DNA of 47,589 bases from Azoarcus sp. (GTDB taxonomy: Bacteria > Pseudomonadota > Gammaproteobacteria > Burkholderiales > Rhodocyclaceae): positions 1 to 47,589 of the forward strand of contig JAIRXQ010000032.1 in NCBI GenBank assembly GCA_031268195.1, read 5' to 3'. The position numbers were made by a program, and so were the translations under genes. Each line of letters starts with the position of its first letter. Within the stretch, counting starts at the first letter, position 1. Shown piece after piece: positions 11,329-20,379 of the stretch. Under the pieces are notes generated by a model. It saw only the letters and a list, made by a program, of their open reading frames with translations. It searched no databases and was not told where the DNA came from.

Positions 11329-12580
11329 GACGGAGATTCGCAACTACACGCTCAACTTCGGCCCGCAGCACCCGGCGGCGCACGGCGTGCTGCGCATGGT
11401 GCTCGAACTCGACGGCGAAGTGGTCGAACGCGTCGATCCGCATATCGGGCTGCTCCATCGCGGCACCGAAAAGCTTGCAGAGGCGCGCACCTGGGTGCAG
11501 TCCGTGCCGTACATGGATCGCCTCGACTACGTTTCGATGATGTGCAACGAGCACGCTTACTGCCTCGCGGTGGAAAAGCTCCTGGGTGTCGATGTGCCGG
11601 AGCGCGCGCAGTACATCCGGGTAATGATGGACGAGGTGACGCGCATCCTCAATCACCTGATGGGCATCGGCTCGCACGCCTTCGATATCGGCGCGATGAC
11701 GATGATTCTCTACACCTTCCGCGAGCGCGAAGACCTGATGGACGTGTATGAGGCCGTCTCTGGCGCGCGCCTGCACTCGGCCTACTACCGGCCCGGCGGC
11801 GTCTACCGCGATCTGCCGGAGACGATGCCGAAATACCAGCCCAACCGCTTCAAGAACGAAAAGACGGTGGCGAAGCTCAACGAGGCGCGCGAAGGTTCCT
11901 TGCTCGATTTCCTTGCAGACTTCACCAATCGTTTCCCGAAATGTTGCGACGACTACGAGACGCTCCTGACCGAGAACCGCATCTGGAAGCAGCGCACGGT
12001 GGGCGTTGGCGTGGTGTCGCCCGAACGGGCGCTGGCGCTCGGTTTCACCGGCCCGATGCTGCGTGGTTCGAACATTGCGTGGGACTTGCGCAAGAAGCAG
12101 CCTTACGAGGTGTACGACCGCGTGGATTTCGATATCCCCGTGGGCAAGAACGGCGACTGTTACGACCGCTACCTCGTGCGCATGGCGGAGATGCGCCAGT
12201 CGAACGAAATCATCCGCCAGTGCATCGCCTGGCTGCGCGAACATCCCGGCCCGGTCATTACCGATAACCTCAAGGTTGCGCCGCCGAAGCGCGAAAAGAT
12301 GAAGGCGGGCATGGAAGAGCTGATTCACCACTTCAAGCTCTTTTCCGAAGGCATTCATGTGCCGCCGGGCGAGGTTTACGCCGCCATCGAGCACCCGAAG
12401 GGCGAATTTGGCGTCTACGCCGTCTCGGACGGGGCCAACAAGCCGTACCGCATCAAGCTGCGCGCGCCGGGTTTTGCGCATATGGCGGCGATGGACGAAC
12501 TTGCGCGCGGCCACATGCTGGCCGATGTGACGGCGCTCATGGGCACGCTGGATCTGGTTTTTGGCGATGTCGACAGATAA
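11321..12580 (+). CDS. nuoD: NADH-quinone oxidoreductase subunit D
   Basis: NuoD is the 49-kDa subunit that, with NuoB, forms the quinone-binding pocket. It is related to the large subunit of NiFe hydrogenases. The start [20 protein letters not shown] gives 419 residues; the family motif [10 protein letters not shown] is at about 13, HRGTEKLAE at about 48 and [12 protein letters not shown] at about 155. The C-terminus ends in the conserved form [10 protein letters not shown] chose the ATG at 11321, which overlaps the nuoC stop by 8 bp, instead of an upstream frame start. A VOC-family gene intervenes before nuoE. Confidence 0.97.
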
Positions 12581-12596
12581 GGAGGCAGGGCGGGTC

Positions 12597-13040
12597 ATGC
12601 TGAAAAAATTCTGTACCAACATGATGGTGGACGACCTCCACGCGACCTTCGACTTCTACCGGACGGTGCTCGGTTTCGAGCACGTCATGTCGATGCCGGC
12701 GCATGCGGAGCGTGCGGAAGATATCCTGTTCGAGTACGACGCCAGCAAGCCGCTCGTCTACGCCCTGGTCCGCCACGGCAGCATCGAACTGATGTTCCAG
12801 GCGCGCGCAAGCCTGCAAGAAGACGTTCCGGCCTTCGCAAATGCGGCGGCCACGGGTGGAACGCTGACTTTTTATTTCGAGGTCGACGATGTCGACGCCT
12901 TGGCGGCAAAGCTAAGGCCCGCGTGCGAGGTGGTGCGGGATCTGCGCGACGCCTTCTACGGCATGCGGGAAATCTATATCCGCGACCTGAATGGCTACGT
13001 CCTCTGTTTCGGGCAGGACGTGACGAAGTCCGCTTCCTGA
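12597..13040 (+). CDS. VOC-superfamily (glyoxalase/bleomycin-resistance fold) protein inside the nuo operon
   Basis: The protein has 147 residues from MLKKFCTNMMVDDLHATFDF. The pattern is a vicinal-oxygen-chelate domain with two beta-alpha-beta-beta-beta modules. An opening DDLHATFDFYRTVLGFEHV, a middle IELMFQ, then FYFEVDDVDALAAKL, and a closing MREIYIRDLNGYVLCFGQ are all typical. Candidate metal ligands are His (DDLHATF), Glu (IELMF) and a late acidic residue, but the metal set cannot be fixed by eye. The substrate is unknown. GGAGG lies 11 bases before the ATG. It sits in the same orientation between nuoD and nuoE, so it should be expressed with complex I. VOC genes are not part of the enzyme itself. 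Confidence 0.85.
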   Translation: MLKKFCTNMMVDDLHATFDFYRTVLGFEHVMSMPAHAERAEDILFEYDASKPLVYALVRHGSIELMFQARASLQEDVPAFANAAATGGTLTFYFEVDDVDALAAKLRPACEVVRDLRDAFYGMREIYIRDLNGYVLCFGQDVTKSAS

Positions 13041-18303: not shown

Positions 18304-18789
18304 ATGGGCGCAAAGGATTACATCGGAAGCCTGTTCCTCAAGGAACTGCTGCAAGGACTGGTCGTTACGGGGCGGCATTTTTTCCAGCGCAAGCTGACGA
18401 TTCAGTACCCCGAGGAAAAGACGCCGCAAAGTCCGCGCTTCCGTGGCCTGCACGCGCTGCGCCGCGACGAGCGAGGCGAGGAACGTTGCGTGGCCTGCAA
18501 GCTGTGCGAGGCGATCTGCCCGGCGATGGCGATCTCCATCGACGTCGCCGAACGCGAGGACGGCTCGCGTCGCACGACGCGTTACGACATCGATTATTCC
18601 AAATGTATTTTCTGTGGTTTCTGTGAGGAAGCCTGTCCGGTGGATGCCATCGTCGAGACGCCGATTTTCGAGTTTCATGGCGAGGCGCGCGGCGAGCTTT
18701 ATTACAGCAAGCAGATGCTGCTGGCCATTGGCGAGCGCTACAAAGAGCGCATCGACGCCGACAAAGCGGCGGACGCGAAGTATAGGTAA
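18304..18789 (+). CDS. nuoI: NADH-quinone oxidoreductase subunit I
   Basis: NuoI is a ferredoxin-like subunit with two [4Fe-4S] clusters (N6a, N6b) that deliver electrons to N2 in NuoB. The 161 residues hold both ligand sets, [12 protein letters not shown] (about 60) and [12 protein letters not shown] (about 101). They also carry the N-terminal amphipathic helix and the QYPEEK segment that docks on the membrane arm. In a standard operon nuoJ would follow. Here two unrelated genes are inserted first. Confidence 0.97.
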
Positions 18790-18818
18790 AGCGGCCTATT
18801 CAACAGGAAAGGAGAGCA

Positions 18819-19307
18819 ATGCCAAACATCAATACCCCATCGAGCGGCCATGTCGGCCCTTCCGCGAACATGCACCGCCAGTGGCTGCCATATACCGCCG
18901 CCGACAGCAGCGATCTGGCGATGTTGAATGTGGCAATGAACATCATCAATACACGGATAAAGGGTCACTCTCCATGCAATGCTGCATTTCAAGCGCTGCC
19001 GGGTGGGCGGACGTTTGCGGACATCTGGAACGACTCATCGGTATGGATCAGCTATAACCCGGTGTGGCGGCACGGCTACTTTGGTTCCACCTCAGGGAAG
19101 GATATCACTATCGCGAAATATGCTTTTTCGATGGGGCATTGGACGATAGCCGCTACCCTTGTTCATGAACTTGCGCATGTCAATGGCGCACCGGGCCACA
19201 ATACGCAGGCAGAAGATACGCTGAAGGCGTGCCTTCTCAGAGATCTGTACGATCCCAGTGTCATAGGAAGTCTGACTGGACCATTCAATGATCCACACAT
19301 GGCATGA
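18819..19307 (+). CDS. Putative zincin metallopeptidase (HELAH), inserted between nuoI and nuoJ
   Basis: Zinc-protease activity is inferred from the motif AATLVHELAHVNGAPGH: His116, Glu117 and His120 form HExxH. Gly123 and His127 make it HExxHxxGxxxH, one residue longer than the metzincin signature HExxHxxGxxH. Alternatively Glu132 (in QAED) could be the third ligand, as in gluzincins. The 162 residues have no signal peptide or membrane helix and two cysteines (53, 138). The rest (HMHRQW-like N-terminus, FADIWND, YNPVWRHGYF) matches nothing I recognise. A strong Shine-Dalgarno (AAGGAG) precedes the ATG. A hand count over 18901-19260 gives about 53% G+C, visibly lower than the nuo genes, which suggests transfer. 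It overlaps the TIMP-like gene by ATGA. The compact form and neighbour recall toxin/immunity pairs; function is unproven. Confidence 0.7.
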   Translation: MPNINTPSSGHVGPSANMHRQWLPYTAADSSDLAMLNVAMNIINTRIKGHSPCNAAFQALPGGRTFADIWNDSSVWISYNPVWRHGYFGSTSGKDITIAKYAFSMGHWTIAATLVHELAHVNGAPGHNTQAEDTLKACLLRDLYDPSVIGSLTGPFNDPHMA

Positions 19308-19729
19308 AGCTGGAAATGAAAAAGTTCATTTTCTTTCTGTGGTTATCCCTGTTGGCCTCGACGCAGGTGTTCGCCTGCCGCTGCCTGGAGCCGGAGGCGC
19401 GGCGGGCTTATGCCGAAGCGGACGCCGTGATTCTGGCAAGAATCGGTGCGGTGGCCGCGCCGGAGGAGAGGTCGGTGCGCATCGAGGCGGAGATGCTGCG
19501 GTCGTGGAAGGCGGGGGTTACGCGCAACGTGCTCCTGTTTACGGCGTTTCCGGAGACGGATTGCGCCTATCCCATGCGGGAAGGCGATACCCATCTCCTG
19601 TATCTCGTCAAACACCGCACGGATTCGGAAGCTTTCTGGACGGAGCGATGCATGGGTAATCTGATCGGGAAAAAGGCGGCAAAGCGCATTCAGTGGCTGG
19701 ATCGCCATGGCAAGAAATCGTCGGGCTGA
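19304..19729 (+). CDS. Secreted TIMP/NTR-like protein, putative metalloprotease inhibitor
   Basis: The 141-residue product has a Sec signal, MKLEMKKFIFFLWLSLLAST then QVFA, predicted to be cut before Cys25, leaving mature Cys1-Arg2-Cys3. In TIMPs the N-terminal Cys-x-Cys chelates the protease zinc, and Cys1 and Cys3 form disulfides. Here two further cysteines, Cys87 (TDCAYP) and Cys116 (TERCMG), fall at mature positions 63 and 92, close to 72 and 101 in human TIMP-2. The stretch AYAEADAVILARIG, the strand RIEAEMLRSWKAG, VLLFTA and HLLYLVK follow the TIMP/NTR beta-barrel pattern in order. No lipobox fits well (Phe at -2). It overlaps the HELAH protease gene by 4 bp and ends 8 bp before nuoJ. 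MKKF at 19316 is an alternative start. Direct inhibition of the neighbour is inference. Confidence 0.7.
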   Translation: MKLEMKKFIFFLWLSLLASTQVFACRCLEPEARRAYAEADAVILARIGAVAAPEERSVRIEAEMLRSWKAGVTRNVLLFTAFPETDCAYPMREGDTHLLYLVKHRTDSEAFWTERCMGNLIGKKAAKRIQWLDRHGKKSSG

Positions 19730-19737
19730 GCGCAAAC

Positions 19738-20379
19738 ATGGAATTCAAAACCTTCGTCTTCTATCTCCTCTCGGCAGTGCTCGTGCTGTCGGCGCTGCGC
19801 GTCATCACTGCCCGCAACCCGGTGCATGCGGTGCTCTTTCTGGTGCTGGCGTTCTTCAACGCCGGGGGCATCTGGCTTTTGCTGTCGGCGGAATTTCTCG
19901 CGGTCACGCTGGTGATGGTCTACGTCGGCGCGGTAATGGTGCTGTTCCTGTTCGTGGTGATGATGCTCGACATCGATTTCACGCGGCTGCGCGAGGGGTT
20001 CTGGAAATATCTGCCGGTGGGCGCACTGGTCGGCGTGGTGCTCACCATTGAAATGAGCCTGGTGCTCGGCGGCAAGTATTTCGGGCTGGAAGCCATGCCC
20101 GCGCCCGCCGCGACGCCCGCCGGTTTCAGCAATACGCGCGAACTTGGACTCGTGCTCTACACCGACTACGCATGGCCGTTTGAATTGGCCGCGCTGGTGC
20201 TGCTGGTGGCGATGATCACCGCCGTGTCGCTGACGTTGCGCAGGCGGCGCACGGACAAATGGATCGCGGCATCGGCGCAGGTTTCGGTGCACCACGAGGG
20301 CCGCATCGAATTGGTCAAGATGGCGGCGGAGAAGACAGAGCCTTCCGCTGCGGCGGACGATGCGGCGGCCCAGCCATGA
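19738..20379 (+). CDS. nuoJ: NADH-quinone oxidoreductase subunit J
   Basis: NuoJ is a membrane subunit in the proton-pumping arm. The 213 residues contain five helices and the pattern ARNPVHAVLFLVLAFFNAG (about 25) and VTLVMVYVGAVMVLFLFVVM with the pi-bulge region typical of helix 3. The Ala/Glu-rich C-terminal tail is variable in the family. I chose MEFKTFVFYLL at 19738, not the longer frame from 19693, which overlaps the preceding gene. No Shine-Dalgarno is evident before it (CTGAGCGCAAAC), so translation may depend on coupling to the inserted gene upstream. Confidence 0.94.
   Translation: MEFKTFVFYLLSAVLVLSALRVITARNPVHAVLFLVLAFFNAGGIWLLLSAEFLAVTLVMVYVGAVMVLFLFVVMMLDIDFTRLREGFWKYLPVGALVGVVLTIEMSLVLGGKYFGLEAMPAPAATPAGFSNTRELGLVLYTDYAWPFELAALVLLVAMITAVSLTLRRRRTDKWIAASAQVSVHHEGRIELVKMAAEKTEPSAAADDAAAQP

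Follow-up and report, generated by a model that had tools for sequence, protein, structure and literature searches.

The window analysed here is the whole stretch of 47,589 nucleotides from Azoarcus sp., and at its nuoI-nuoJ junction there are two genes, on the same strand as nuoI and nuoJ, which encode a leaderless protein with a predicted zincin fold (ORF1) and an exported protein with a predicted TIMP/NTR fold (ORF2). With moderate confidence we propose that this pair is a T6SS-delivered periplasmic zincin toxin together with its TIMP-fold periplasmic immunity protein. T6SS would inject the zincin into a neighbouring cell's periplasm, where it would cut envelope proteins, and the exported TIMP-fold protein would wait in the periplasm of producing cells and their kin to block the zincin. 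For this block a free Cys1 and the Cys1-Arg-Cys3 edge would enter the active-site cleft, as with the TIMPs of animals, which are textbook inhibitors. The nuo operon would be a mere well-expressed landing site.

The gene pair in the nuo operon

The features of the junction are listed below, in positions of the window.

18304..18789, + strand: nuoI, upstream gene of the host operon
18807..18814, + strand: GAAAGGAG, candidate Shine-Dalgarno-like sequence 5' of the zincin gene (by inspection)
18819..19307, + strand: ORF1, zincin gene, 162 aa, without signal peptide
19164..19178, + strand: HELAH zinc-binding/catalytic motif, zincin residues 116-120 (from sequence; invariant in 18 of 18)
19212..19214, + strand: Glu132 codon, possible third ligand of the zinc (17 of 18 have Glu, 1 has Asp)
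19304..19729, + strand: ORF2, gene of the TIMP-like exported protein, 141 aa (likelier start at 19316, 137 aa)
19316..19375, + strand: signal peptide of ORF2, ending in VFA (hydrophobicity; cleavage site by inspection)
19376..19384, + strand: Cys-Arg-Cys, mature N-terminus of ORF2 (invariant in 16 of 16)
19738..20379, + strand: nuoJ, downstream gene of the host operon, ATG start

The initial annotation placed two non-nuo genes between nuoI and nuoJ, which is confirmed by the coordinates and common strand of the open reading frames. It also described an ATGA overlap of the two genes. This is correct with the ATG at 19304, from which the signal peptide counts 24 residues, but not with the likelier ATG at 19316, which leaves 8 nt between the genes and gives a signal peptide closer to the type of the relatives. 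Over 12 pairs, for which the starts were picked by eye, zincin and partner are -8 to 76 nt apart. The G+C content is 0.538 for ORF1, 0.601 for ORF2, 0.595 for nuoI, 0.626 for nuoJ and 0.627 for the window, so the lower G+C attributed to the insert belongs mainly to ORF1.

The dN/dS values among three genus members (NG86) were 0.09-0.32 for ORF1 and 0.26-0.36 for ORF2, with dS saturated in some pairs. YN00, for the pairs where it was computable, put ORF1 at 0.19 and ORF2 at 0.24 and 0.61. These ratios, and the fact that the two genes are neighbours again in other genomes, indicate that the gene pair is more than chance. No Pfam or NCBIfam model reached its cut-off for either window protein. The nuo operon also carries a second non-nuo gene, a VOC (glyoxalase-superfamily) gene at window positions 12531-13037, between nuoD and nuoE.

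Predicted folds of the two proteins

The zincin fold expected for ORF1 was found in its predicted model: zincins came on top of the structural matches, and the best among those listed were aspzincins (AsaP1, deuterolysin). HExxH is present in all 18 aligned zincins, and in the window zincin HELAH lies on a helix of residues 107-121. Metzincins have the motif HExxHxxGxxH/D, in which the third ligand is the sixth residue past the second His, and a Met-turn. The near-metzincin motif HExxHxxGxxxH read earlier in this protein proved weaker than claimed, since the His of GAPGH misses the metzincin spacing by one position and only one of the 18 aligned zincins has it. The column of the third metzincin His carries no His in any of the 18, with Gly, Ala, Asn or Met instead. 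No conserved Met column follows HExxH in this alignment, and the window zincin and nine others of the 18 have no Met within 40 residues past the motif. The metzincin reading is therefore ruled out by motif conservation.

The motif of aspzincins carries Asp. The zincins here differ from these M35 enzymes (AsaP1, deuterolysin) in that the conserved candidate for the third ligand is Glu132 in an AE motif, and the Pfam Aspzincin model had no match over cut-off, with one of the 18 members reaching E 0.21. When the zincin profile was compared with PDB, neither VgrG2b nor any zincin chain was matched. Its sole matches were two pilin chains at profile positions 29-89 (PilA5, E 0.0043; a relative, E 0.21), which were taken as probable chance matches. 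Hydrophobicity revealed no leader on the 18 zincins. No fusion to a delivery domain (VgrG, PAAR and Rhs included) was seen in the open frames of the zincin matches, which are 62-211 aa long.

In contrast with the leaderless zincins, the 16 partners have hydrophobic leaders. ORF2 had been described as exported with a Cys-x-Cys N-terminus, which is matched with its hydrophobic leader followed by Cys-Arg-Cys, and the predicted structure bears out the TIMP/NTR (NTR/OB) fold as well. By inspection there is no lipobox; the partner looks like a substrate of signal peptidase I, and its N-terminal Cys1 is probably free. Zinc chelation by Cys1 is a hypothesis that fits the modelled fold and is suggested by it and by a Cys1 that is likely free.

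The mature window partner has exactly four Cys, at positions 1, 3, 63 and 92. Four Cys are found in all 16 aligned partners, with possible pairs 1/~62 and 3/~90. The N-domain of TIMPs has six Cys in three disulfides, so with four Cys the third N-domain disulfide is missing here. Cys ~62 and ~90 of the partner correspond to Cys 70 and 99 of animal TIMPs. The partner is like animal TIMPs (N-TIMP, PF00965) in its fold and in the Cys-x-Cys mature N-terminus behind a signal peptide; it differs in having no C-terminal domain and in that the protease encoded with it is no metzincin. By sequence alone the kinship is weak. The PF00965 search suggested in the initial annotation gave matches at E up to 1 in four of 16 partners (best E 0.0036), none over cut-off and none for the window partner, and the partner profile matched a TIMP in PDB at E 0.21.

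A wider exported family with CxC after the leader, kin of the partner, is present without zincin (L063-L067, L069, L070). Among 398 genomes of the phylum, 12 were found with such exported CxC proteins without zincin, and the genome of the window is one of the 12.

Linkage, distribution and loss

Genome contigs were scanned with two short conserved zincin patterns, an incomplete search, which gave 18 zincin loci in Alpha-, Beta- and Gammaproteobacteria, Acidobacteriota and Planctomycetota. A TIMP-like gene lies directly after the zincin gene at 11 of the 18, in the three proteobacterial classes and Acidobacteriota. Two loci (L017 and L018, from genus members G019 and G007) supplied partners among the five profile seeds, and without them the linkage is 9 of 16. 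Nuo genes are beside the zincin at these two loci only and at none of the other 16, within 3.5-12.5 kb per locus. Zincin and partner are thus neighbours at loci without nuo genes, a point that the initial annotation had proposed to check. In 12 pairs the distances of zincin and partner are correlated (Mantel r 0.61, p 2e-4), in part perhaps through common descent, and the partner diverges faster, with a mean identity of 0.30 vs 0.43 for the zincin.

There is no TIMP-like neighbour at seven of the 18 loci (L023, L024, L025, L026, L028, L030, L034), and two loci found later, L057 and L059, have no TIMP-like gene in their genomes. Of these nine genomes without linked partner, three (G804, G809, G815) carry TIMP-like genes at other places, and in the remaining six none was found. 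G809, the genome of L028, has five TIMP-like genes, none adjoining its zincin. In this Pyrinomonadaceae MAG the zincin without TIMP-like neighbour (L028:5995-6465) has an sdhA-like gene on one side and an sdhB-like gene on the other, so that here too a respiratory operon holds an insertion. At L057:975-1493 (genome G262) the zincin is followed by an overlapping gene for an unrelated exported protein without Pfam match. This protein is a candidate for another type of immunity protein, and the antidote looks as though it had been swapped. L059 has no obvious partner next to its zincin. In Aquisphaera insulae (L024:6508-7488) an alpha-acetolactate decarboxylase with a lipoprotein-like N-terminus comes after the zincin.

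The zincin is rare: with the window's own genome counted in each case, it was found in 2 of 369 genomes of the class and in 2 of 398 of the phylum. Searching phage and plasmid collections with the zincin by tblastn gave no match, and none was found in the viral contigs scanned. Carriage by phage or plasmid is ruled out for those collections and contigs only, other mobile elements being outside this scope.

We compared the junction in those genomes of the genus, 14 in all, where nuoI and nuoJ share a locus. Three have the pair, two the TIMP-like gene alone, two a short remnant and seven a gap of 18-39 nt with no trace of the insert. Both remnants align with the 3'-terminal part of intact inserts (G016 vs G008, E 6.6e-14; G017 vs G019, E 1.7e-8). 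At a non-nuo site, behind a phosphomannomutase gene, G009 has the first 47 zincin residues and then an intact TIMP-like gene. The window's own genome has a second copy behind a lytic transglycosylase gene (L002:1036-1662, contig C80), in which the TIMP-like gene is intact and a C-terminal piece of the zincin is left, and in G018 the TIMP-like gene is present and a zincin match absent. An intact zincin was identified in 3 of the 21 genus genomes, each with its partner, and there are several cases of partners without intact zincin. So the zincin is lost before the partner, as one would expect of a toxin gene and its immunity gene.

A tree of nuoI+nuoJ from the 14 genomes unites G007, G008, G012, G016, G017 and G019 (support 90/91), all of which carry either the pair, the TIMP-like gene or a remnant at the junction. 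G000 joins G002 and G005, whose junctions are empty; in the tree of mature partners its nuo copy is placed with the other nuo copies at weak support (47/46). The history of the junction may be an ancestral insert with losses, recombination, or two insertions at one site.

T6SS association, alternative readings and related systems

VipB is the sheath protein of T6SS. It was present in 33 of 39 genomes, that is, 17 of 21 in the genus, a frequency that gives no discrimination within it, and 16 of 18 zincin genomes outside; it is found twice in the window's own genome. In background samples it was detected in 38 of 200 phylum genomes and in 35 of 190 genomes from the class of G730, which is taken to be Alphaproteobacteria. 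All seven alphaproteobacterial zincin genomes (G730 included by inference) have VipB vs 34 of 189 (p 1.1e-5), in a comparison unmatched for genome size or phylum and with non-independent members among the 18 zincin genomes (three Roseibium/Labrenzia, two Pyrinomonadaceae). G801 and G802, both with the pair, had no VipB match in assemblies of unstated completeness.

In Mesorhizobium (L032) the pair is inside a T6SS cluster, with TssF and a ClpV-like ATPase directly upstream and VipB 8 kb from the TIMP-like gene on the same contig. By eye, no T6SS genes adjoin the pair at other loci. The L021 pair has AHH nuclease/Imm11 cassettes on one side and a TPS-domain exoprotein on the other, in a genome without VipB match. 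These cassettes are two in tandem (L021:2022-4431), one with a shortened first gene piece. The toxin/immunity-like behaviour suspected in the initial annotation is supported by the loss pattern at the nuo junction, the AHH/Imm11 and T6SS neighbours and the co-occurrence of VipB.

That annotation knew of no described bacterial zincin/TIMP operon, which is contradicted by Mtz-Tim, a metzincin and TIMP-like lipoprotein of Listeria and other Firmicutes described in 2021 (PMC8235301). According to that report, Mtz-Tim has the same gene order, a metalloprotease gene and directly downstream a gene for an exported TIMP-like protein, it is patchy and mobile in distribution, and Mtz cleaves its partner and alters the cell wall. 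The pair here could likewise serve producer-side envelope remodelling, with protease and partner acting mutually and on their own envelope and no delivery. We consider this improbable, because Mtz is a Sec-exported metzincin with Met-turn, whereas the zincins here have neither Sec signal peptide nor metzincin motif, and because the association with T6SS is strong. Mtz and Tim are reported to be consistently paired, whereas the inhibitor is alone in several of our genus members, and Tim in Listeria is a lipoprotein, unlike the presumed signal peptidase I substrate here; the setting here, Gram-negative with T6SS, also differs (PMC8235301).

A toxin-immunity cassette delivered by other routes, for example two-partner secretion (CDI-like), or in a host-dependent way, would make the co-occurrence with T6SS incidental, and the surroundings of the L021 pair speak for this. 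This is also unlikely in view of VipB in 16 of the 18 zincin genomes, the pair within a T6SS cluster and the short frames without delivery-domain fusions. Some zincin loci have no TIMP-like neighbour, the wider CxC family lacks zincin, and two genus members in the genome collection are presumably termite-gut MAGs, judged by their isolate names. These points would suit a housekeeping protease or a zincin effector against eukaryotes (e.g. gut protists), and the TIMP-like protein would then be unrelated or a general periplasmic inhibitor. The chance of this is small, as it is opposed by direct linkage at 11 of 18 loci in the three proteobacterial classes and Acidobacteriota and by the correlated divergence of the 12 pairs, which shared ancestry may partly explain. 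The site within the nuo operon, a junction at which three genus members have the pair, could mean an accessory pair for maturation or turnover of complex I. This has hardly any probability and is ruled out by the seven of 14 junctions that are empty without trace and the 16 of 18 zincin loci where nuo genes are missing within the DNA examined.

T6SS metallopeptidase effector-immunity pairs were already described (PMC6899460, PMC12992299). The VgrG2b C-terminal domain with PA0261 (Tpe-Tpi) resembles the proposed pair: it is a leaderless zinc metallopeptidase domain acting in the periplasm with T6SS, and its exported immunity protein with cysteines is encoded downstream, as stated in PMC6899460. 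The zincin here differs in that no VgrG, PAAR or Rhs fusion was seen and its profile matched no zincin chain in PDB. VgrG2b was absent among the best 50 structural matches listed for the zincin, and such absence excludes nothing. Polymorphic-toxin cassettes are similar in the small standalone toxin-type domain with downstream partner and as neighbours in L021, and differ in that no Pfam/NCBIfam model reached cut-off for the window proteins. The "TimP" named among the references of PMC12494544 is an unrelated Salmonella toxin. The accessible parts of PMC6899460, PMC11148199, PMC12494544, PMC8235301 and PMC12992299 do not describe a T6SS-associated TIMP-fold immunity protein, and a leaderless non-metzincin zincin with TIMP-fold partner and T6SS was not found in the literature within reach, most subscription journals and all preprints lying beyond it.

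The zincins represent a family that no Pfam or NCBIfam model covers, among the models compared. If our proposal is true, the pair would be a new class of effector-immunity pair. A Gram-negative N-TIMP-fold family with probably free Cys1 and a linked protease makes the origin of this inhibition testable, that is, whether TIMP-type protease inhibition is older than animals or has arisen twice. It is possible, and we say so tentatively, that bacteria of several phyla protect themselves by true TIMP-type inhibition, with Cys1 of the NTR fold chelating, in the periplasm, the zinc of a T6SS-delivered non-metzincin zincin. If so, the TIMP mechanism that animals use on matrix metalloproteases would have a prokaryotic reservoir in the bacterial CxC/NTR proteins.
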